A stretch of DNA of 64,000 bases, taken from Melioribacteraceae bacterium (GTDB lineage: Bacteria > Bacteroidota > Ignavibacteria > Ignavibacteriales > Melioribacteraceae). The stretch is from positions 124,001-188,000 of the forward strand of contig JAFGMI010000012.1 in assembly GCA_016927595.1 (NCBI GenBank), read 5' to 3'. The position numbers and the translations under genes were made by a program. Under the pieces are notes generated by a model that saw only the letters and a program-made list of their open reading frames with translations, ran no database searches and was not told the DNA's origin. This document shows, one piece after another, positions 36,935-61,603 of this stretch (within the stretch, counting starts at the first letter, position 1; each line of letters begins with the position of its first letter).

Positions 36935-38908
36935 TCATTTTAATTTTAAATCATATTTATTGCTTACAGGTAAAACGATATTAACCGTTGTGCCTTTATT
37001 TAATTCACTCTCTATAGTGATATCTCCCTTGTGCATTTTAATGATCCCATAAGAAATTGCCAGACCAAGTCCTGTCCCTCTACCGATTTTCTTTGTAGTA
37101 AAAAACGGTGTAAAAAGTTTATTTATATTTTCTTCTTCAATACCGCACCCGCAATCGATAATTTTTATAAATATTTTTGAATCATCGTTGTTCAGAATAA
37201 TTCTCAATTTTTTCTCATCGCGTGATTCCATAGCTTCGATTGCGTTATTGATAATATTAATGAATACCTGCTTGAGCTGGTCTTTATCAGCCTTTATAAT
37301 AATATCCTCCGCATTATCTTCCAATTCAATTAGCAGATCATTCCCATTTGTATCGGTAACTATCTTTATAACTTCGGACAGTACATTTTTAATTGAAACT
37401 TCCGCTGGATTTAATTTCCGCTCTCTTGCGAAGTTCAGCAGATTAGATACTATTCCTCTGCATCTTTTTGCTTCATCGAGAATCATATCCACATCGCCGC
37501 AGTCTTTCTCAATTTTCTGAAGTTCATTTCTGATTAAAGAAGAGTATAATATTATTGTTCCTAAAGGATTATTAAGTTCATGCGCAACACCTGCAGCAAG
37601 CTGACCAATGGAGGCGAGCTTCTCGGCATTTGTGAGCTGTTCCTGTGTATTCTTTAATTCGGTGTAAGCGGATTCCAGTTTATCTATAAGATGCGGCAGA
37701 CACATCTCATCTTCAGCCAATCCTTTCCCGAAAGCGATTGCATATTCGCGGCAGGTGTCGTATCCGCAGGCTCCGCAATTCAATTCATCTATTTCACTAT
37801 ACTTATTAGTTCTTCTGAGTATTTCTGCGATCTGCTCCTCTGACGGCATTGGTCTGCGTCTGTTTTCAGGTGTGAAAATCCTGTTAAGGTCCAACTCCCT
37901 GCTGTTATAAATTTCGCTGTTCCATACATTCCGGTCAGTATGACTCTGATTCTTCTCAATAAATTCTATAACCTTTTCGCGACGAGCATAATGGTTTAAG
38001 TCACTATCTATTGCAGGTCCGTTTATACACCCTTCGCAAAAAAGTATGTCAATAAATTTTGATTTTATTTTACCATCTGCTATGTCATCGATTATCTCTT
38101 TCACTTTCGATTTGCCTTCAACAATAATAAGATCCTTCTCAAGTATGTTGCTTTCTATACCGGCTGTTTTAAGCAAGCCTCCTGAAATTGCATATGACTT
38201 TCCCATCGCAGCATGCGGCGGATCGAACTCGATTGTATCAAGGTTATCCAGTTCAATATTATTTGAGTTAAATATTTCCTTGATTTCAGAGAATGTAAGA
38301 ACAGCGTCTATTGCATCATTTACTTCGAGATCCCGGTACTCACTTTTCTTTGCAATACAGGGACCAATGAAAACAATTTTAGGATTACTGTAATTTGCTT
38401 TCAAATATCTGCCCATAGCAATCATAGGTGAAACGATTTGAACAAGATTAGGCACCAGTTCAACGAAATACTTTTCAATATAATTATATACAGCCGGGCA
38501 TGGCGTGCTGATCATAGTTTTTTTATTATTCGCAATGATATCTTTATATTTCACATTAATAAGATCAGCACCGAATGCAGTTTCAGAAACTCTTTTAAAG
38601 CCCAGTTTTTTCAGTGCAGCGGGTATTTTATCGTAATTTTCCGGGAATGAAGCTGCAAAAGACGGAGCCACTATTGCAAATGTATCGAACTGTGGAATGA
38701 GTTCATCAAAAACTTTTATGTTATCACTTTCTACAGATTTCGCATGCTGGGAACATACTTTCAGACAGTGACCACAGCTTATGCATCTTTCTTCGATCAC
38801 AACTGCCTGACCATCAATAACCCTGATAGCATTAGCCGGGCATTCTCTTATGCAGGAGTAACACCTTTTACATTTCTGACCGATTGTGCTTACAATACCC
38901 GTGTACAT
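36935..38908 (-). CDS. Sensory [FeFe]-hydrogenase / histidine kinase fusion (HydS-like)
   Basis: A 657-residue fusion. Domains: two ferredoxin [4Fe-4S] motifs (CKRCYSCIRECP, CISCGHCLKVC; residues 13-52), then a hydrogenase large-subunit-like domain (70-345). The H-cluster motifs are altered: TPCPAVY (C137) for TSCCPGW, IGPCIAKKSE (C183) for MPCxxKxxE, and CEGCINGP (C291, C294) for the C-xxx-C motif. A four-Cys cluster (C378, C381, C386, C403) follows, then HisKA with H443 in GVAHELNNPLG and HATPase. There are no membrane helices. Histidine-kinase-linked [FeFe] hydrogenases are a known putative H2/redox-sensing group. Its place between two catalytic sets supports that role. Confidence 0.88.
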   Translation of the reverse strand: MYTGIVSTIGQKCKRCYSCIRECPANAIRVIDGQAVVIEERCISCGHCLKVCSQHAKSVESDNIKVFDELIPQFDTFAIVAPSFAASFPENYDKIPAALKKLGFKRVSETAFGADLINVKYKDIIANNKKTMISTPCPAVYNYIEKYFVELVPNLVQIVSPMIAMGRYLKANYSNPKIVFIGPCIAKKSEYRDLEVNDAIDAVLTFSEIKEIFNSNNIELDNLDTIEFDPPHAAMGKSYAISGGLLKTAGIESNILEKDLIIVEGKSKVKEIIDDIADGKIKSKFIDILFCEGCINGPAIDSDLNHYARREKVIEFIEKNQSHTDRNVWNSEIYNSRELDLNRIFTPENRRRPMPSEEQIAEILRRTNKYSEIDELNCGACGYDTCREYAIAFGKGLAEDEMCLPHLIDKLESAYTELKNTQEQLTNAEKLASIGQLAAGVAHELNNPLGTIILYSSLIRNELQKIEKDCGDVDMILDEAKRCRGIVSNLLNFARERKLNPAEVSIKNVLSEVIKIVTDTNGNDLLIELEDNAEDIIIKADKDQLKQVFINIINNAIEAMESRDEKKLRIILNNDDSKIFIKIIDCGCGIEEENINKLFTPFFTTKKIGRGTGLGLAISYGIIKMHKGDITIESELNKGTTVNIVLPVSNKYDLKLK

Positions 38909-38923
38909 AAAATTCGTATGATT

Positions 38924-40651
38924 TTATTTTATAAACTGTCTGTTATAATAATGCGTATGCAAAATATCATGCGCACGATGACTGTTTGGATATTCCAGGT
39001 AATCTTCATATATCTTAATAACCGATTCATTCTCATGCGACATTCTATGCTTCGACTTTGTATCGATCTCGTAAAGTGCCTGAACCCTTTTCAGAATTTT
39101 ATCTTTCTGCTGATGAAGAGGTTGCCCGCCACCGTTTATACAACCTCCGGGACAAGCCATAACCTCGATAAATTTATAATCACACTCACCTTTTTCTATC
39201 CTATCCAGTATCTCGCCAACATTCCCGATGCCGTTAACAACTGCCACTTTAATTTCCTTACCGTTCATAATAACAGACGCTTCTTTTATTCCACCCATAC
39301 CTCTGAGATCATGCAATTCGAGGTCCTGCATATACTTCCCTGTAATCTTAAAGTACGCGGTTCTTAGTGCAGCCTCCATTACACCTCCGGTCGTTCCGAA
39401 AATAACTGCAGCCCCTGTTGATTCGCCAAGTGGATTATCGAAATTATCATCGGGTAAATCATTAAAATCAATACCCGCCATTTTAAATAACCTGACAAGT
39501 TCTCTTACGGTAAGAACAGCATCTACATCAGGCAGTTTTTCCTCAGTCAGTTCCGGTCTGGTTGATTCATATTTTTTAACGGTACACGGCATGATTGAAA
39601 CAACAAACATGTCTTCAGAATTTATTCCCGTCTTTTCGGCATAGTACGTTTTTAATAATGCACCCTCCATTTCATGCGGTGATTTGCATGAAGAAACATG
39701 GTTCAGCAGGTTAGGTCTGTTTTGCTCAATATATTTAATCCAGCCAGGGCAGCAACTTGTGAACATTGGAAGCACACCGTTATTTGATAACCTGTCAATA
39801 AGCTCGGAGCCCTCTTCCATAATGGTTAAATCTGCTCCGAAATTGGTATCGAAGACTTTATGAAATCCCAGTCTTCTTAATGCGGTAACGAGCTTCCCGG
39901 TAACATTTAGTCCTATCGGCATATTAAATTCCTCACCTATTGAAGCTCTGACGGCAGGTGCTACCTGAACAATGCAAAGTTTTTTGCTGTTATTCAGAGC
40001 GTTTGTCACTTCTTTAAGATGACTTTTTTCTCTTAATGCAGCTGTAGGACAAACAAGTATACACTGTCCGCAGAGTATACAATTACTTACATTCAATCCT
40101 TTGTTGTAAAATGTACCTACACTGCTGTTAAAACCCCGGTTGGTAAAATCAATTGCCCCGATCTTCTGGATCTCGTTGCATACTCGTACACATCTTCCGC
40201 AGAGAATACATTTTGCAGGATCTCTTTCCAACGATGAACTTGAAATATCAACTGCGTGAGATTTTGATTCACCGCTGTATCTGTGTTCTCTGATACCGTA
40301 TATTTCTGATAAATCCTGCAATTCGCAATTTTTATTTCGCACACATATAAGACAATCCTGGGGGTGGTTTTCAATCAACAATTCAACGATTGTTTTACGT
40401 GCTCTCCTCACCCTTGGTGAATTAGTCTGGACATTCATACCGTTGGACACCGGGTAAGCACATGAAGGAATAAGACCTTTCATTCCTTCCACTTCAACGA
40501 CGCAAATTCTGCAGGCTCCGCTAGGGAACAAATCTTTCATGTGACAAAGAGTTGGAATTTTTATCCCTATTGTCTTTGCAGCTTCCAGAATTGTTAATCC
40601 TTCTTCTGCTTTCAGATGTATATTGTTTATTGTAATATCTACGGTTTTCAT
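38924..40651 (-). CDS. hydA: [FeFe]-hydrogenase catalytic subunit, first set (HydA/HndD)
   Basis: A 575-residue HydA. [2Fe-2S] ligands are C36, C47, C50 and C64. The His/Cys [4Fe-4S] site is H96, C100, C103 and C109. Two ferredoxin clusters follow (CILCGRCVRVC, CILCGQCILVCP). The H-cluster motifs are fully canonical: FTSCCPGW (C300, C301), IMPCTVKKYE (C356) and VMACPGGCINGGGQP (C500, C504). It should be catalytically competent once matured by HydE, HydF and HydG, which are not in the window. It lies 16 bp after hydB of the first set and 15 bp before hydS. Confidence 0.95.
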   Translation of the reverse strand: MKTVDITINNIHLKAEEGLTILEAAKTIGIKIPTLCHMKDLFPSGACRICVVEVEGMKGLIPSCAYPVSNGMNVQTNSPRVRRARKTIVELLIENHPQDCLICVRNKNCELQDLSEIYGIREHRYSGESKSHAVDISSSSLERDPAKCILCGRCVRVCNEIQKIGAIDFTNRGFNSSVGTFYNKGLNVSNCILCGQCILVCPTAALREKSHLKEVTNALNNSKKLCIVQVAPAVRASIGEEFNMPIGLNVTGKLVTALRRLGFHKVFDTNFGADLTIMEEGSELIDRLSNNGVLPMFTSCCPGWIKYIEQNRPNLLNHVSSCKSPHEMEGALLKTYYAEKTGINSEDMFVVSIMPCTVKKYESTRPELTEEKLPDVDAVLTVRELVRLFKMAGIDFNDLPDDNFDNPLGESTGAAVIFGTTGGVMEAALRTAYFKITGKYMQDLELHDLRGMGGIKEASVIMNGKEIKVAVVNGIGNVGEILDRIEKGECDYKFIEVMACPGGCINGGGQPLHQQKDKILKRVQALYEIDTKSKHRMSHENESVIKIYEDYLEYPNSHRAHDILHTHYYNRQFIK

Positions 40652-40667
40652 AAATATCCCCGGGGAA

Positions 40668-42626
40668 TTAATTCGTAGTTATAGCATTAAACCGGCAAGT
40701 CTCGACACACAAACCGCACTTAATACATTTGCTCTGAACGATGTAATGAGCCTGCTTCTTTTCACCCACAATTGCGCCCACCGCACATTTCCTTGTGCAT
40801 AAACCGCAACCAGTACAAATTTCATTATCTATATTATATGTTAAAAGTTCTTTACAGACATGAGCTTCGCATTTTCTGTCATAGATATGTGCTTCATATT
40901 CTTCCCGGAAATATTTAAGACCGGAAAGAACCGGATTAGGTGCACTTTGACCCAGTCCGCATAATGAGGTGTCTTTTATCACCTCTGCCAGCCTCTTAAG
41001 GTGTATTATACCTTTAAATCGCTGAAATGCATCATGACCATTGCCGTTGTTCTCATAATTTTGTGTTATTCTCTCAACAATTTCGAGCATTCTCTTTGTC
41101 CCTTCTCGGCAAGGGACACATTTCCCACAGGATTCATTCTGTATAAAAGTAAGAAAGAATTTTGCGACATCTACCATACAAGTCCCTTCATCCATAACAA
41201 CAAATCCTCCGGAACCCATCATAGCTCCCACATCCTTCAGTGATTCATAATCGACAGGCGTATCCATAACAATCTCTGGCAGACAACCGCCGGAAGGTCC
41301 GCCTATTTGAACCGCCTTAAATTTTTTCCCGTTGGGAATACCACCACCGATTTTAAAAACAACATCACGTAATGTTACTCCCATAGCAACTTCTACAAGA
41401 CCCGTATTCTTAACATTTCCGCTTAATGCAAATACCTTAGTGCCTTTACTCTTTTCCGTACCGATAGATGAGTACCAGCCGGATCCTTTTTGTATAATCA
41501 TGGGAACATTAGCAAAAGTCTCAACATTATTAATTACTGTTGGTTTTCCGAATAAACCCGATTCACTAGGATACGGAGGTCTCGGCTCAGGCATTCCTCG
41601 TCTGCCTTCGATTGATGCTATCAGAGCGGTCTCCTCTCCACAAACGAATGCACCTGCTCCTTTTTTTATTTTTAACTCAAAACCGAATCCGCTGTTTAGT
41701 ATATTCTTACCAAGCAAACCATATTCTTTAGAATGTAAAATTGCATTCTCAAGTTTTTTTATTGCAAGCGGATATTCTGCTCTGCAGTATATATATCCTT
41801 CTGATGCACCAATAGCATATGCGGCTATTACCATACCTTCAATTACCTGGAATGGATCACCTTCTAGAATCGAACGGTCCATAAATGCACCCGGATCGCC
41901 TTCATCTGCATTGCAAATAACATAACGCTTATCAGCCGGATTTTTAGCAGTTAATTCCCACTTCTTGCCGGTTGGGAAACCGCCTCCACCCCGTCCCCGC
42001 AAACCGCTATCCAAAACTTCTTTGATAACATTCTCCGGTGACATCTCATTCAAAACTTTTGAAAGACCAAGAAAGCCACCTGAAGCAATGTACTGATCGA
42101 TTGAGTCCGGGACAATTCTACCGCAGTTTCTGAGAACAACTCTTAACTGATGCCTGAAGAATTCGGTTTCGTCAATATTTCTTACGAACTTATTTGTAGC
42201 ACCATACGTTGCAAAGACTTTTTTCGTGAAGATTTGTTTATCTACAGTTGTGGTCTTTATTAATTCTTTTACATCATTGACTGTTATTTCACCGTAAATG
42301 ATACGATCGGAACCAGGGAGTTTAATATCAACTACCGGTTCAATAGCTCCATAACCAATACCGCCTGTATTCACAATTTCCGCGTCGACACCTAAGCTAT
42401 TCAATTCCTTTTCAATTTCGTGACGCACTTTTGCAGCACCTGATGCAAGTCCGCTGGTATCCATACCTATAAATATCACCGGTCGATCATGTTTTTTATA
42501 TTTCAGCAATGATATATATTCTTCAAGTTCATTTTGAACCGAAGGAGTAATTTCAGGATTTATACAGCGTTCAATGAACTCACAGGGCGGAAAATCCAGT
42601 TTTAATATTTCCAGAAAACTTTCCAT
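40668..42626 (-). CDS. hydB: Hydrogenase NADH-binding subunit, full-length, first set (HydB/HndC)
   Basis: A 652-residue HydB. NuoF core: LRGRGGGGFPTGKKW (209-223) and GAFVCGEETALIASIEG, with [4Fe-4S] ligands C500, C503, C506 and C556. A Zn-type motif (C586, C591) and two [4Fe-4S] ferredoxin motifs (C604-C614, C634-C644) complete the C-terminus, as in electron-bifurcating HydB. The N-terminal thioredoxin-like domain (about 48-125) keeps the fold pattern, with ASGAAKVRHE and NTGGIGYGAIEPVV. However, all four [2Fe-2S] cysteines are replaced, the usual C-x-G-x-C of the second pair reading G-IG-Y-G. The flavin and distal clusters are intact. It is adjacent to hydC without a gap. Confidence 0.93.
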   Translation of the reverse strand: MESFLEILKLDFPPCEFIERCINPEITPSVQNELEEYISLLKYKKHDRPVIFIGMDTSGLASGAAKVRHEIEKELNSLGVDAEIVNTGGIGYGAIEPVVDIKLPGSDRIIYGEITVNDVKELIKTTTVDKQIFTKKVFATYGATNKFVRNIDETEFFRHQLRVVLRNCGRIVPDSIDQYIASGGFLGLSKVLNEMSPENVIKEVLDSGLRGRGGGGFPTGKKWELTAKNPADKRYVICNADEGDPGAFMDRSILEGDPFQVIEGMVIAAYAIGASEGYIYCRAEYPLAIKKLENAILHSKEYGLLGKNILNSGFGFELKIKKGAGAFVCGEETALIASIEGRRGMPEPRPPYPSESGLFGKPTVINNVETFANVPMIIQKGSGWYSSIGTEKSKGTKVFALSGNVKNTGLVEVAMGVTLRDVVFKIGGGIPNGKKFKAVQIGGPSGGCLPEIVMDTPVDYESLKDVGAMMGSGGFVVMDEGTCMVDVAKFFLTFIQNESCGKCVPCREGTKRMLEIVERITQNYENNGNGHDAFQRFKGIIHLKRLAEVIKDTSLCGLGQSAPNPVLSGLKYFREEYEAHIYDRKCEAHVCKELLTYNIDNEICTGCGLCTRKCAVGAIVGEKKQAHYIVQSKCIKCGLCVETCRFNAITTN

Positions 42627-43118
42627 CTATTCTCCGATAGTCTCCATTATTTCAATATTTTCTTTTACACTCTTATTCCTGAAATTTTTAATGATTTTTG
42701 GAATTTCCTTAACCGTAAGTCTTCCGAAATATTCATCATTAACGCTTATTACAGGGGCAATGCTGCATGCACCAATACATGCTACGGTTTCAATGGTAAA
42801 CAGTTTATCCCTTGTGGTACAACCCGCTTTTATACCGAGTTCAGTCTCCAGTGCCTGAAGTATACCTGCCGAACCTTTTACGTGACAAGCAGTTCCCCTG
42901 CAGACTCGTATAACATACTTCCCCAGAGGAGTAAGCCTAAACTGATTATAGAAAGTAGCAATCCCGTAAATGCTGCTTAAGGGCATACCCAAATGAATTG
43001 ATGCTTCCTGCAATTCCTGCTCAGGCAAGTAGCCGAATTTATCCTGGATATCCTGCAATAAAGGTATGATTGAACTGCGATCATTTGCAGTGTAATTGTT
43101 AACTATACTCTTATCCAT
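42627..43118 (-). CDS. hydC: Hydrogenase [2Fe-2S] subunit, first set (HydC/HndA, NuoE-like)
   Basis: A 163-residue NuoE-type subunit. The N-terminal helical part has FGYLPEQELQEAS and YGIATFYNQF. The thioredoxin-fold [2Fe-2S] ligands are C73 and C78 (VCRGTACH) and C114 and C118 (ACIGAC). It is the first gene of the ten-gene hydrogenase operon, and its stop abuts the hydB start. Because the fused [2Fe-2S] site in HydB is lost, HydC may be the only [2Fe-2S] relay on the HydB side. Confidence 0.94.
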   Translation of the reverse strand: MDKSIVNNYTANDRSSIIPLLQDIQDKFGYLPEQELQEASIHLGMPLSSIYGIATFYNQFRLTPLGKYVIRVCRGTACHVKGSAGILQALETELGIKAGCTTRDKLFTIETVACIGACSIAPVISVNDEYFGRLTVKEIPKIIKNFRNKSVKENIEIMETIGE

Positions 43119-45760: not shown

Positions 45761-48700
45761 TTGAATCAGATTGAATTAAATAAGCTTCAGTCTGAAGCAT
45801 ATGATCACCTTTGGAACGGCAGGTTCAGACTGGCATTAAAGTCTGCAAAAACCTTATTCCGTGAAAGACCAAATGACAGTGAAGCAGCTATCTGCCTGGC
45901 ATGGGCGCTGCTCGAAAACGGAAGTCCGACCAAAGCGATGGATTATGCAAATCTGGCTGTGGAGCTGCAGGGCGATTCAATACGCACACACCTCTGCCGC
46001 GGATATGTGCTGATGCGATTAAGTATTTTTGAAGGATCGATCGCTGATCTTGATCAGACTATTGATGACCAAAAGGCTCTTCTTTCATGGTCATATCTTA
46101 ATAAAGCACGTGCACTTGCCGGCATGGGGAATATTAAAGATGCAAAGCTTTCACTCAAACTTTGTCAGTTAATTGATAACCGGAAAGGCTCAAACTGGAA
46201 AGAAATTACAAATTATTATGATATTGCTGAAAGCCTGAAAAGTAAGGGTGAAATAAAAGAAAAGGACGTGAAAAGGCTCCTTGCTCTTGCAGATTCCGCG
46301 CTAAAAGATAAAGAAAACTGGTTCGCTTTATGTGTATCTGAATTTATTCAAACCAACGAAATGCTGAGCAAATATCATGATGAAGCCCTCCTTTTAGATC
46401 TCGATGCAATGCTGCACCTTTTCAGATTCAGACCTGCACTAAAAAAAGCGGAAAGTCTGAAGAGTAAATTCAAAGGCAATAAAAAGTTCAAGCAGATTTA
46501 TTCTGCCCTGCAGAAAATGCAGGATGAAGATTCCCGGGAAGATGAGCTCCAAATACTGCCGCCGATCAGGAAAACGTTAATAGAAGAAAAACCGGATACA
46601 TCATTAACAGAAAAACACGTACTTAATGCAAAGAAAACTGATGCCTGTTATTTTGTCAGCGATCATGCACAGGTCTTCTCTGTTAAAATGTTTGATATGA
46701 CTGTTCTTCAGTCTGATAAGGTGATGCATTATTATGATCAGTTTGATATTTCAAAAACAAAAGAGATCGGTATTGAGGTGGTTTTTAATAATCCCTTCTT
46801 CAGGCAGAAAACGAACACTTATAATTGTGAAGCCAGGTGGTATCTGAACGATTTTGAAATCCATGCAAATAAGTTTTCGCTTCAGGTAGACAAAGACTGG
46901 GATTCGGTTATTTTCAACCAGCAGTGCGGCGATACCGAAGAAATTAACCTGGCAACAGGTCAGGCTAAGATTGAAATATATATTGAAGGGTTTAAAGTCT
47001 GTGAAAAGTGGTTCCTTCTGGATTATGAATATGTTGCTGACAAGACTTTGCCCACAGCCGAAGTAGGTGAAGATCAGAAAACGGATGAGAAAACAGAACA
47101 GCTTAAAACAGAAACAAGACCTATCGAGGAGTTGCTAGAGGAACTGGATAGCTACATAGGACTGGAAAGTGTCAAGCAGTCTGTAAGAACTTTCATCTCA
47201 TTCCTCACATTTCAGAATGAAAGGCAAAAAAAGGGTTTGAAATCAGAGAGTAGTTTATCGCTTCATACGGTTTATACCGGTAATCCGGGTACAGGTAAGA
47301 CAACTGTTGCAAGATTAATGGGTGAGATATTAAGATCACTCGGAATACTTAAAAAGGGGCATGTTGTTGAGGTTGACAGAGCAGGTTTAGTAGGTCAATA
47401 TATTGGTGAAACAGCCCAGAAAACCGAGAAGGTGCTGGAAGAGGCTATGGGAGGAGTTCTTTTCATCGATGAGGCATATACACTCGTTAAGAAAGGCGGC
47501 TCACAGGATTTTGGTCAGGAAGCTGTTGATACGATTTTAAAAAGAATGGAAGACAGAAAAGGTGAATTTGCTGTATTTGTCGCAGGATATCCTGAAGAAA
47601 TGAACAATTTTCTTGAGTCAAATCCGGGATTAAAATCGAGATTCAATCATACTTTCAATTTCGAGGATTATACGCCCGATGAATTGATGAAGATATTCGA
47701 CATGTATCTTTCAAAGGATGAATATTCTATTAACGAGGATGCAAAGGAATTTCTTAGTAAACACCTTATCAAACAATATAGATCGAGAGATAAATCATTT
47801 GGTAACGCACGTCTTGTAAGACAAATTCTCGATAGAATAAAGCTTCAACTTAGTCTCCGCTTTTCAAAAATTGAACTGCAAGAAGTTTCGGATGAGTTTT
47901 TGACTGTGATAACCCTTGAGGATATTGATGAGGTACTTAAAGGCAGCGATGAGAAAACTGTATCACTCCCGATCAATGAAGAAGAACTTGAAGAAGCGCT
48001 TAGAGAGTTAGACTTACTGATAGGACTTGGCAGCGTTAAAAACGATGTTAATGATCTTATAAAACTGGTTCGCTATTTCATGGAGAAAGGAGATGATGTA
48101 AAGGACAAGTTTTCCAATCACATACTGTTTCTTGGCAATCCCGGTACCGGAAAAACAACAGTTGCAAGGATTCTCGGAAGAATATATTCAGCTCTTGGCA
48201 TTTTACCCAGAGGTCATCTTATTGAAACTGACAGACAGGGACTGGTTGCTAATCATATAGGCGGTACTGCTGAAAAAACAAAAGTTGTAATCGATAAATC
48301 AATAGGCGGTACGCTTTTCATTGATGAAGCCTATACACTTGCGCCGAAAGATTCGGGAGCTCAGGATTTCGGCAAAGAAGCGATCGATACTCTGCTGAAA
48401 CGTATGGAGGACGACAGGGGTAAATTTATAGTTATTGCTGCAGGATACACGAATGAAATGAAAACCTTCATCGAAAGTAATCCGGGTATACAATCACGTT
48501 TCACCAAAACATTTACATTTGAAGATTATATACCAGAAGAATTAATTGAAATCGCTCTCGGTATAATGAAAAAGCAGTCAATTGCATTGGATGATGATGC
48601 AAAAGAACTGCTGGACAAGCATTTAAATGATATCTACCGTTCAAGGGATAAACATTTCGGCAACGCGAGAGTTGTGAGAAATATACTCGACAAAGCTTTA

Positions 48701-49672
48701 CAGAGAAGACTACTCAGGCTTGCGGAACATCCTTCTGAAGAACGCAAAAAAACCGAGAGTGAAAACTTGATTCGTGAAGATATAGAACAGGCTATCGGTA
48801 AAGGACAACAGGTAAAAACATACGACATTCATGGTGATCCGGAGAAGCTTGAATTACTTTTAAAGGAATTGAAAGGACTGATAGGATTAAACAGTGTGAA
48901 GGAAAATGTAGAGAAGCTGATAAGCAGCCAGAAAGTAAATAAGATGAGAAAAGAACGCGGACTAAAGGTGATCGATAAAAGCCTTCACTCCGTATTCATA
49001 GGTAATCCCGGAACCGGAAAAACAACAATTGCAAGACTATTGAGTAAAATTTATAAGGAGATGGGACTTATTGAGAAGGGGCATCTTGTTGAAGTTGACC
49101 GATCAAATCTTGTAGCAGGATATCAGGGTCAAACTGCGATTAAAACCGATAAAATCATTAAGGATGCCATTGGAGGGACACTGTTTATAGATGAAGCATA
49201 TACATTATCCCGCGGTCCGAATGATTTCGGTCAGGAAGCTATTGATACACTACTGAAGCAGATGGAGGATCACAGGGATAATCTTATAGTAATAGTTGCG
49301 GGTTATACAAATGAGATGAACAAATTCCTGGAATCAAATCCCGGTTTAAAATCACGCTTCACCAACTTTTTTACATTCGAAGATTACACTCCCCGTCAAT
49401 TACTTTACATTGCTGCAGATATCGCTGAAGAAAACGGCTATAAATTAGATGAAGGCGCTTTGCAATTGCTACTTGAACTGTTTTCTAAACTGTATGAAGA
49501 ACGGGACAGAAATTTCGGTAATGCGAGAATTGCACGGAATATACTTTACAGCGCAATCAGTAATCAGGAAGAACGTATCTCATCTATGTATGATTACAGT
49601 GATGAGGATTTAATGACCATTAATTTCGACGATGTGCATAACATCGATATCAATCAGTTGTCATCAAACTAA
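45761..49672 (+). CDS. TPR protein with three CbxX/CfxQ-type AAA+ domains
   Basis: A 1303-residue soluble protein. Start TTG 45761: a TAA lies 12 codons upstream and the next ATG is codon 62. N-terminal TPR-like helices (about 1-250) are followed by a beta-rich region (about 295-430). Three CbxX-type AAA+ modules follow, with Walker [10 protein letters not shown] near residues 507, 791 and 1080 and Walker [10 protein letters not shown] near 565, 851 and 1139. Each has an ESNPG-[LI]-[KQ]-SRF motif and a DRNFGNAR-type arginine segment. CbxX relatives remodel Rubisco (CbbX) or, with N-terminal TPR, act in type VII secretion (EccA). Three modules in one chain could form a built-in partial ring. 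An ABC exporter follows directly. The substrate is unknown. Confidence 0.9.
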
Positions 49673-49682
49673 ATTCATTATT

Positions 49683-50414
49683 ATGCTTCAGATAAAATCA
49701 TTATCAAAAAAATTTGAATCATTTACTGCTGTTGACAATATAACACTGTCTATAAATCCAGGTGATCTATATGGTTTCTTAGGTCCGAACGGAGCAGGAA
49801 AAACAACAACGATAAAGATGATTGTCGGACTTTACGCGCCCAGCAGCGGAGAAATTATTATCAACGGTATGAATTCCAGAACAAATGGCACAGAAGTAAA
49901 AATGGATATCGGTTACATACCGGATCAGCCATTTTTATATGATAAACTTACTGGCTATGAGTTCCTTCTTTTCTGCGGTGGTCTATACGGTATAAGCAAA
50001 GATCAGCTTAAGAGACGAGTTAACGAACTTGTTGATTTACTGAAAATTGAAGACTGGCTTAATAAAAGAACTGAAGAATATTCACAGGGTATGAGACAAA
50101 GAATTACTATAGCCTCCGCCCTTTTGCACAAGCCGAAACTAATAATAGTCGACGAACCGATGGTAGGTCTTGATCCGCAAAGTGCGCATGTAATCAAGAA
50201 TGTATTCAGAGATTATACCAATGAAGGCAATGCAGTGTTTATGTCTACTCACTCATTAAACGTTGTAGAAGAAATCTGCAATCGTGTTGGTATAATAAAA
50301 AAAGGGCAGATTATTTTTGATGACGCTATCGGAAAGCTCCATGCATTAAAACAGGAACACGACAGAAATATTGAAGAGCTATTTATTCAATTAACACATG
50401 AAGAGCCTCTTTAA
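49683..50414 (+). CDS. ABC transporter ATP-binding protein
   Basis: About 243 residues from the ATG at 49683, 10 bp after the AAA+ stop. Walker A GPNGAGKTTTI, signature YSQGMRQRI, Walker B LIIVDEPMVGLDP and the switch H in STHSL show an active ATPase of the DrrA/CcmA-like exporter class. It pairs with the membrane protein that starts 5 bp later. Operon position suggests it works with the upstream AAA+ protein, but this is inference. Confidence 0.95.
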   Translation: MLQIKSLSKKFESFTAVDNITLSINPGDLYGFLGPNGAGKTTTIKMIVGLYAPSSGEIIINGMNSRTNGTEVKMDIGYIPDQPFLYDKLTGYEFLLFCGGLYGISKDQLKRRVNELVDLLKIEDWLNKRTEEYSQGMRQRITIASALLHKPKLIIVDEPMVGLDPQSAHVIKNVFRDYTNEGNAVFMSTHSLNVVEEICNRVGIIKKGQIIFDDAIGKLHALKQEHDRNIEELFIQLTHEEPL

Positions 50415-59705: not shown

Positions 59706-60251
59706 TTAAATCATTTCGGTGAGTAATTCCCTGCGTGGTTTCGGAATTACTACCTTATTAACAAGTAATCCTTTTTCAGAGATTATATGAGCACCGGCAT
59801 CTACAGCACTTGTTACTGCGGCAACCTCACCTGTTAAGGTGCAGAATGCTTTACCGCCTAACGCCATAGCTAACCTTATTTCAATCAGTTCTACGTTTGC
59901 CGCTTTTACCGCTGCATCGGCTCCTTCAATAAGCGAAGCTACAGAAAAAGATTCTATTATTCCAAGTGCCTGCAGTTCAGCAACCTTGCTGTGCCCGGAA
60001 AGTGCAGGGAATATATCGGGATGTACATGAGGTATCACGAATGTATCGATTACTGCAAAGTCTATCTGTGTTGATGCTGCATCTACAGCGGTTTGTACCT
60101 CTGCAACGTCGCCACCGATCAGTACCATATACTTACCCGAACAGATCGTCCTGGAAATGATCAGTTCAACTTCCGAAGTTTTTAACATAATATCTGCTGC
60201 CTGCATTCCTGCTGCGATACTTGTCATTTCAATGAGTCCTATGGAATTCAT
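59706..60251 (-). CDS. pduT: Tandem-BMC-domain shell protein, PduT-like
   Basis: About 181 residues from the ATG at 60251; a TTG two codons earlier is possible. It has two BMC domains, the first with SIGLIEMTSIAAGMQAADIM and the second with QALGIIESFSVASLIEGADAA. C37, in SRTICSGK, matches the PduT cysteine that ligates a [4Fe-4S] cluster at the centre of the pseudohexameric trimer. The end, GLLVNKVVIPKP, also follows PduT. Such shells pass electrons through the compartment wall. Its partner PduS is the adjacent upstream gene (26 bp). No other shell or diol-dehydratase genes are in view. Confidence 0.92.
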   Translation of the reverse strand: MNSIGLIEMTSIAAGMQAADIMLKTSEVELIISRTICSGKYMVLIGGDVAEVQTAVDAASTQIDFAVIDTFVIPHVHPDIFPALSGHSKVAELQALGIIESFSVASLIEGADAAVKAANVELIEIRLAMALGGKAFCTLTGEVAAVTSAVDAGAHIISEKGLLVNKVVIPKPRRELLTEMI

Positions 60252-60277
60252 TTCCAAACTTTCTTTCCTATGATAAA

Positions 60278-61603
60278 TTAAAATGCATTGATGCGAACAT
60301 AATCATCTGTGACGTGAGTTACAATACCTGATACGGGAGAATGTATATTTGCTCCCAGATCTTTTATATCAACTTCACCTATTTTGTCACCTTTATTCAC
60401 CTTCTGATTTATTGAGACGACAGGTTTTGCTGTCTGACCAACATGCTGCTTTAAATAAACTTTTACTCTTTCAGGATCAGGTGATTTATTAGTGAATGGA
60501 GTTTTTGAATCATACTGAGCAATATTTAATTTTTTCATTAACTGTTTCAATGGTACTCGTCTTCCCTCTTTAATAGGATGCACTTTTACCGGTTTTTGCT
60601 GTTCGTATCTTATGCCGGATGCCCTCATTTCATATTTGCTTTGGTCACATGCTTCTCTTGGATAAAGGTCTTCCGGACAAGCATATAGTGAACATAAACC
60701 GCATGAGCAGCATAAATCTGCATACTGATTCCATAATTCTTTCCCGGACTTGGTGAAAACCAAAGTACGCATTACTTTGTGGGGTTGAACATCGTAACCG
60801 AGCAAATATCTAGGACAAAACTCGGTGCAATAGCTGCACTGGTCGCAGGCGGACTTGCCGATTCTGTTCATATCTGCTTTCGACCTCTGCTGTCTCATCA
60901 CAAGGTAATGATCTGCTGGTAACACAATTATGCCTGCAGTAGTCTTAGTAACAACATCGGTGGTATCGAATGTTAGTTTTCCCATCAGTATTCCACTTAC
61001 AAAAATAGCATAATTATCGGTAGCAGCACCTCCGCAAAACTCGATAAGTTCTTTAAATGATGTCCCGATTGGTGTAAAAAAGGATGAAGGATTTTTTACC
61101 ATTCCGGTAACGCAAACGAACTTGTCGGTAACCGGTATATCGTTTACAGCGTTAAATATATTATAAAATGTTTCAACATTATTAACGACGCAACCTACAT
61201 CTAAAGGGAGTCCATGAGGTGGTATGAGTCTTTTTGTAGCATGGTAAACCAGCTCATATTCATCTCCAGAGGGATAAAAATCACCGAGAAAACTCATCTC
61301 AATATTGCTACCGTTAAGCTGGCTTTCTATAGCTTCAATAGCGAGAGCATTCTTCTCTTTTATACCAAAATACCCTTTCCTTGCATTAGTGGATTTAATC
61401 ATATGTTTCATACCTTCAATAATTTCTTTCGATTTATTGAGCATGATCTCATAATCCTTATGAATTAACGGCTCGCATTCAGCTCCGTTTGCAAGTACAA
61501 ATTCCACGTTCGATTTTGCTTTAACATGAGTAGGGAAACCAGCTCCGCCAGCCCCTACTACCCCGGCATTAAAAATTTTTTCGCTAAAATTCATTATTAT
61601 CAT
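60278..61603 (-). CDS. pduS: PduS-like flavin/Fe-S oxidoreductase (RnfC-related)
   Basis: A 441-residue protein. It has the flavin/NADH motif VVGAGGAGFPTHVK, then NGAECEPLIHKDYEIM and VGCVVNNVETFYNIF. An SLBB-type region and two [4Fe-4S] motifs follow (CDQCSYCTEFCP and CCSCGLCSLYACP, residues about 260-320). A lipoyl-like C-terminal domain has GANIHSPVSGIVTHV. PduS reduces cobalamin cofactors or shuttles electrons in propanediol microcompartments and binds PduT. The first of two nearby ATGs (61603, 61594) is reported. It overlaps the phosphatase gene by 20 bp. Confidence 0.91.
   Translation of the reverse strand: MIIMNFSEKIFNAGVVGAGGAGFPTHVKAKSNVEFVLANGAECEPLIHKDYEIMLNKSKEIIEGMKHMIKSTNARKGYFGIKEKNALAIEAIESQLNGSNIEMSFLGDFYPSGDEYELVYHATKRLIPPHGLPLDVGCVVNNVETFYNIFNAVNDIPVTDKFVCVTGMVKNPSSFFTPIGTSFKELIEFCGGAATDNYAIFVSGILMGKLTFDTTDVVTKTTAGIIVLPADHYLVMRQQRSKADMNRIGKSACDQCSYCTEFCPRYLLGYDVQPHKVMRTLVFTKSGKELWNQYADLCCSCGLCSLYACPEDLYPREACDQSKYEMRASGIRYEQQKPVKVHPIKEGRRVPLKQLMKKLNIAQYDSKTPFTNKSPDPERVKVYLKQHVGQTAKPVVSINQKVNKGDKIGEVDIKDLGANIHSPVSGIVTHVTDDYVRINAF

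Follow-up and report, generated by a model that had tools for sequence, protein, structure and literature searches.

Introduction

The best known members of the SpoVK-CbbX-EccA clade of AAA+ proteins, CbbX, EccA and the likewise single-module SpoVK, have one CbxX-type module per chain and serve one narrow client each. Several CbxX modules are carried also by some fungal proteins. The description of the clade in PMC10659427 presents the members as dedicated chaperones with narrow clients and varied N-terminal recruiting domains, reports no peptidase partners, and gives three sequence signatures: the tyrosine of a sensor-1 GY motif, a second arginine finger, and the spacing of an asparagine to the first finger. 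Here we analyse a gene at positions 45761 to 49672 (forward strand) of a 64,000-nucleotide stretch of DNA, hereafter the window, from the genome of a Melioribacteraceae bacterium (assembly GCA_016927595.1, contig JAFGMI010000012.1, positions 124,001 to 188,000). Its 1,303-residue product joins an N-terminal TPR region, an immunoglobulin (Ig)-like domain and three CbxX-type AAA+ modules in a single chain. We found this three-module array to be conserved across an order, with a pattern of module decay that suggests stacked rings of like modules.

The modules and their clade were known already. Neither the three-module TPR/Ig-like chain nor its distribution, mode of decay or operon contexts turned up in the literature searched, which excluded most subscription journals; within that scope no study of three-module CbxX chains was found. 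Domain architectures of the clade are drawn in Figure 3A of PMC10659427, and the tandem form may appear there.

Results

The gene starts with a TTG codon, which aligns with the N-terminus of a relative (L032). Residues 1 to about 284 (45761..46612; all features of the gene are on the forward strand) form the TPR region, a putative client- or adaptor-binding part with one modest Pfam match (TPR_16, 9.1e-8, residues 12-70). It is followed by the Ig-like beta sandwich, residues 289-445 (46625..47095), which was delimited by a profile match, is supported by a structure model and fold matches, and is putatively client-binding. Profile borders place AAA+ module 1 at residues 452-728 (47114..47944), module 2 at residues 740-1015 (47978..48805) and module 3 at residues 1027-1297 (48839..49651), and Pfam recognizes AAA three times and AAA_lid_6 three times. 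The architecture put forward in the original prediction, TPR repeats and a beta-rich region followed by three complete CbxX modules, is thus borne out by Pfam and profiles. A profile search of the TPR region against the Protein Data Bank (PDB) returned SRP72 and general TPR proteins, matches too generic to name a partner, and this line was dropped.

The three modules of the window protein are 49-52% identical in pairs. Each carries the Walker A motif GNPGTGKT, the Walker B motif FIDEAYTL, the sensor-1 motif AGY, the arginine segment NPGxxSRF and the motif GNAR, so that motif scoring agrees with the earlier claim of Walker A, Walker B and arginine segments in every module. For comparison, a set of 111 distinct proteins with the beta domain and three full modules was compiled from fetched loci. 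The scored motifs are intact in module 1 of 110 of these relatives, in module 2 of 104 and in module 3 of 69. The tyrosine of the sensor-1 GY signature is present in all modules of the window protein and in 111, 104 and 67 of the 111 relatives for modules 1, 2 and 3, respectively; the arginine of GNAR, corresponding to the second arginine finger (sensor 2), is likewise present throughout the window protein and in 110, 105 and 78 relatives. An asparagine opens NPGxxSRF in all three window modules (108, 105 and 89 relatives) and sits six residues before the SRF arginine. By its sequence, the window protein carries at least two of the three clade signatures. The whole chain matches the SpoVK, EccA and CbbX models, in three stretches each, and also the CbbX and EccA1 structures. 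The pore-loop aromatic is tyrosine in window modules 1 and 3 and is replaced by histidine in module 2, where the 111 relatives have tyrosine (59), phenylalanine (27), histidine (19) or other residues (6).

The window's own genome has a single such gene, a second match being short, weak and in another AAA protein. Some match is present in 52 of 58 genomes (own and relatives). Across the order Ignavibacteriales, which includes Melioribacter among the named relatives, a strong match (E <= 1e-60) was found in 133 of 164 genomes, although in at least four of these (G332, G336, G413 and G414) a two-module protein carrying the beta domain twice matches best. The doubled beta domain was matched in 8 of the 164 genomes, and those same four, 77-93% complete, hold a full-length copy. 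There the two-module gene may have taken the place of the three-module one, a reading that such incomplete genomes allow only tentatively. A tree of 103 modules was computed as a quick tree, with support from the Shimodaira-Hasegawa-like approximate likelihood ratio test (SH-aLRT) and some weak inner forks. In it, the second modules of the 22 proteins sampled all fall into one group (99% SH-aLRT), next to which are those of the doubled-beta proteins L034 and L035 and the only module of L119. Modules 1 and 3 likewise sort by position, and with them sort the modules of three relatives (L077, L086 and L087) that have two modules and lack module 2 outright. Because the modules are orthologous by position, the three-module array is, as far as these trees tell, old, inherited as a whole and conserved in order, and no local oddity. 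Another CbxX architecture in the order joins TPR and DUF7477 to two CbxX modules (L085:6397-9018).

We next consider how the modules decay. Walker B is broken in module 1 of one, module 2 of seven and module 3 of 41 of the 111 proteins. Asked in the original prediction was whether modules 2 and 3 would lack key residues on alignment; the window protein keeps them, and it is elsewhere in the family that module 3 has so often lost Walker B. In 47 of the 49 Walker-B-broken modules the arginine finger is lost too, the two exceptions being module-3 rows. Where module 3 is broken, in 41 proteins, module 1 keeps Walker A, Walker B and finger in all 41 and module 2 keeps them in 35; the remaining six, all of genus g44, have lost modules 2 and 3 both and keep only module 1 live. 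Module 2 alone is lost in L070, and module 1 alone in L089. On a FastTree tree of the sequence preceding module 2, a tree with several long branches, module-3 decay maps as 8 changes, at least 4 of them forced by well supported branches, and module-2 decay as 2 changes.

These losses bear on how the rings are wired. It had been proposed that a covalent trimer could make half of a hexameric ring, such that two chains contribute six modules to one planar hexamer and each finger serves the next module. Three modules per chain divide six, and the short linkers hardly vary in length (modules 1 to 2, 10-12 residues in 108 of the 111 proteins; modules 2 to 3, 10-13 residues in 100), as would suit ring neighbours. 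In fused AAA+ rings of the dynein/midasin type, and in clamp loaders, a dead module is expected to keep the finger that serves its live neighbour. Here, the finger goes together with Walker B, mostly without damage to the other modules, and there are both two-module relatives (L077, L086, L087) and the g44 proteins with module 1 as the sole live motor. We therefore regard the covalent half-ring as unlikely. Because Walker B and finger are lost together beside modules that mostly remain intact, the decay pattern suggests like-with-like rings and hence tiers: stacked homotypic rings would be likelier than a single covalent ring.

The beta domain was described in the original prediction as an unrecognised beta-rich region. 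That it belongs to no Pfam family still holds: the best match of the window sequence is DUF4427 (E 0.057), no Pfam family was matched by more than one of 30 relatives at E <= 1, and a profile search against the PDB gave nothing convincing (best E 0.12). It can now be assigned a predicted fold, and it occurs in other CbxX proteins as well. AlphaFold2, run with eight sequences, modelled residues 287-432 as a beta sandwich (predicted local distance difference test 85.3, predicted template modelling score (pTM) 0.80). Foldseek ranked chains of UNC119, PDE-delta and RhoGDI at the top (E from 9.9e-6, template modelling score ~0.5), whereas VIA-align gave high ranks to Ig-like domains of GH2 and to the carbohydrate-binding domain of Wzt (Z ~9-10). 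Since the two methods disagree on the nearest kin, we limit the claim to a predicted Ig-like beta sandwich, and the attempt to read a ligand from fold kin was dropped.

The beta domain is present in 30 of 296 genomes sampled from the phylum, 24 of them inside Ignavibacteriales and 6 outside. All six outside are doubled, and five of these precede CbxX modules (two modules in four proteins, one in the fifth). The Ig-like domain is a travelling partner of CbxX modules in Bacteroidota and would probably serve client binding. The sixth doubled-beta protein, L114 (also in L201), has no AAA module and a leader-like N-terminus that suggests export; doubled Ig-like domains without any AAA module occur also as 279-residue open reading frames (ORFs) in G127, G215 and G410. 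No gene context common to the beta-beta-CbxX-CbxX genes was seen among the listed loci. Directly adjoining one of these genes is a gene for a protein with TrkA_N and RyR domains (L193:1330-3057).

Marker searches agree with, and extend to whole genomes, the earlier remark that no Rubisco or ESX gene lies nearby. The RuBisCO marker PF00016 was found in none of the 58 genomes and in 5 of 14 known control genomes. The WXG100 marker PF06013 was likewise found in none of the 58 and in 2 of the 14 controls (one over the cut-off), although this is a short family of which distant members could be missed. With both markers absent, the protein is therefore neither a CbbX nor an EccA serving ESX. CbbX membership was rejected on the absence of PF00016, and EccA membership on that of PF06013 together with an unmatched TPR half. 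The TPR regions of 13 members matched 17 families at E <= 0.1, and the EccA model TIGR03922 is not one of them (0 of 13); its best stretch in the window protein covers model positions 273-550 of 557 only. The distinction drawn from CbbX and EccA, which have one module each, is upheld, as is the view that the client is unknown.

Ten nucleotides (nt) past the stop codon of the three-module gene lies an ATP-binding cassette (ABC) transporter ATPase gene (49683..50414, forward strand; start placed by eye at an internal ATG of ORF 49632-50414), and 5 nt beyond it the gene for its operon partner, an ABC permease-like protein of PF16949 (50420..52090, forward strand). The three-module gene and an ABC ATPase gene are same-strand neighbours in 20 of 62 flanked loci (family f1, 10 of 22; f2, 0 of 5; f3, 10 of 35), with a gap of at most 57 nt in 18 of the 20 (the window gap measured by eye) and of 129 and 140 nt in the other two. 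Where present, the ABC pair is an operon partner. Such close linkage, kept in f1 and f3 while the outer flanks differ between families, would fit a secretion chaperone of the adjoining transporter, which would unfold or deliver the substrate to be exported or help to assemble the transporter, in the way proposed for EccA in ESX. However, the pair is missing in 42 of the 62 loci, including all five of f2, and the TPR regions do not match the EccA model. PF16949 relatives are present in 26 of the 58 genomes, 19 of which have one next to the three-module gene. Of the 49 genomes that carry this gene only 24 have a PF16949 relative, compared with 2 of the 9 that lack it (Fisher p = 0.17). As the pair is missing from about half of the gene-bearing genomes, it is therefore not a general client and was rejected as such; a role as secretion chaperone of the transporter appears doubtful.

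A second set of neighbours belongs to paralogues. In 8 of 8 loci (L065, L067, L086, L203-L207), a SiaC gene precedes a paralogue with three or two CbxX modules; Pfam recognized the SiaC of L067, and BLAST to this protein identified those of the other loci. A conserved unnamed protein of 77-85 residues is encoded in between, and its gene ends 0-9 nt before the paralogue (all eight loci, seven by script and one by eye). Further upstream are response regulators that carry SpoIIE, kinase or DUF6272 domains (Pfam, L065 and L067). A third kind of array, of four to six CbxX modules, is found in zinc-ribbon proteins; its first module is strongly divergent in all seven. Its operon, with domains assigned by Pfam in L078, encodes a zinc-ribbon protein, a Ser/Thr kinase with a long C-terminal part, the array, a zinc-ribbon/FHA protein and a PP2C phosphatase; the full set of five genes is found in five of seven loci (L078:1709-13130, L079-L084), and the other two are cut or incomplete. 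Both contexts might suggest a signalling effector, in which an array switched by a phosphoprotein would remodel a regulatory complex. Yet a SiaC gene is found at none of the 62 main loci, and a histidine-kinase-type gene adjoins the three-module gene in three of them (L070, L076, L208), and for the window protein we consider such a role improbable.

Upstream of the gene, the families differ. A GIN-domain (DUF2807) gene is next upstream in 24 of 27 f1 and f2 loci, and groEL lies at most two ORFs upstream on the same strand in 23 of 35 f3 loci (L059, L062, L068, L073-L075, L077, L208, L211-L215, L217, L219-L227). A perfect match to the CIRCE pattern was found in 20 scanned loci, so that most of these f3 loci have such a CIRCE-like box before groES; in one of the 20, L210, groESL lies on the other side of the gene. 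A single GroEL match was obtained in 20 of 20 genomes checked. In the 17 loci inspected of these 23, a terminator separates groEL from the three-module gene (15 by script; in the other two a hairpin and T run seen by eye), and therefore the two are not called one operon. A general proteostasis factor working with GroEL, as the position behind a single CIRCE-bearing groESL operon in f3 might suggest, is very improbable given this terminator and the lack of a groEL neighbour in the 27 f1 and f2 loci.

Two further gene arrangements were noted in the window. At 36935-38908, an [FeFe] hydrogenase large-subunit domain is fused to a histidine kinase (HisKA, HATPase_c), adjoining a hydrogenase cluster at 38924-43118. 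At 59706-61603, a microcompartment shell protein with tandem BMC domains adjoins an RnfC/Nuo51-like protein, which we take to resemble PduS.

Discussion

Because the RuBisCO and WXG100 markers are absent from the 58 genomes, the TPR half of EccA is unmatched and the clade is described in PMC10659427 as one of dedicated chaperones, we read the window protein as a member of the SpoVK-CbbX-EccA clade that acts as a dedicated AAA+ remodelling chaperone. Taken as one joint statement, this seems to us about evenly balanced between right and wrong. The TPR and Ig-like domains would pick up one kind of client, and the AAA+ modules would hydrolyse ATP and pull a segment of it through the central pore, which the pore-loop aromatics would line. 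Most likely, each module would assemble into a ring with its counterparts from five further chains, such that six chains build a three-tier stack with an estimated mass, from chain length, of ~0.9 MDa. Tier 1 would be the indispensable motor, tier 2 the usual helper, and tier 3 often structural only. The client may be membrane- or signalling-linked, since an ABC pair adjoins the gene here and a SiaC phospho-switch precedes the paralogue.

The fuller proposal is a three-tier classical AAA+ machine of six chains, in which three homotypic hexamers are stacked on one axis, tier 1 acts as the motor and tier 3 has repeatedly been made passive; it would be the first TPR/Ig-like CbxX array to be described, from a family in which some arrays are under SiaC or kinase/FHA/PP2C switches. 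We advance it tentatively, as somewhat more apt to fail than to hold in all its parts. Several observations weigh against these readings. The 49 decayed modules count kin rows repeatedly, and the independent events are few. Threading would require aromatic residues in the pore loops, and 25 of the 111 proteins have neither tyrosine nor phenylalanine at this place in module 2, as is the case in the window protein. A model of the three modules as a single chain (870 residues) reached a pTM of 0.37, at which their orientation is not readable. The co-occurrence of PF16949 relatives with the gene is loose.

The three-module array is of interest beyond this locus. It places three modules per chain, across an order, in a clade best known for single-module proteins. 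A module dying beside live neighbours is a natural test of whether AAA+ modules ring like with like or in turn, and the family supplies paired live and dead tiers for experiments. The Ig-like domain, travelling with CbxX modules in Bacteroidota, offers a handle on the clients of a poorly studied chaperone clade.

Comparison with known systems

SpoVK of Bacillus subtilis is like the window protein in its clade signatures and in the logic of a dedicated chaperone, and its NCBIfam model TIGR02881 scores highest for the whole chain. According to PMC10659427, SpoVK activates MurG, has a short N-terminal domain and occurs only in sporulating Firmicutes. The window protein differs from SpoVK proper in that its three modules follow about 450 residues of TPR and Ig-like domains, and in its occurrence in Ignavibacteriales. 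CbbX, the red-type RuBisCO activase (PDB 3syk, 3zuh), has its best-matching stretch in module 1 (E 1.7e-61); unlike the window protein it has one module in chains of 289-309 residues, and its client RuBisCO was found in none of the 58 genomes here. EccA of type VII secretion (PDB 9lur) likewise begins with TPRs and continues with an AAA+ module of the clade, and module 3 matches 9lur; in contrast, EccA has one module, its TPR half is without a match in the window protein, and WXG100 was found in none of the 58 genomes.

Two comparisons concern the array itself. The beta-beta-CbxX-CbxX proteins of other Bacteroidota (L034-L036, L115-L118) have the same beta domain, doubled, and in the two that were included in the tree, L034 and L035, module 2 groups with that of the window family (99% SH-aLRT); they differ in having two modules, with no TPR match noticed and no shared gene context found. 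The p97/Cdc48 machines are likened by mechanism only, as tandem AAA+ modules on one chain with weak sequence matches. p97 has two tiers, whereas for the window protein three are proposed.

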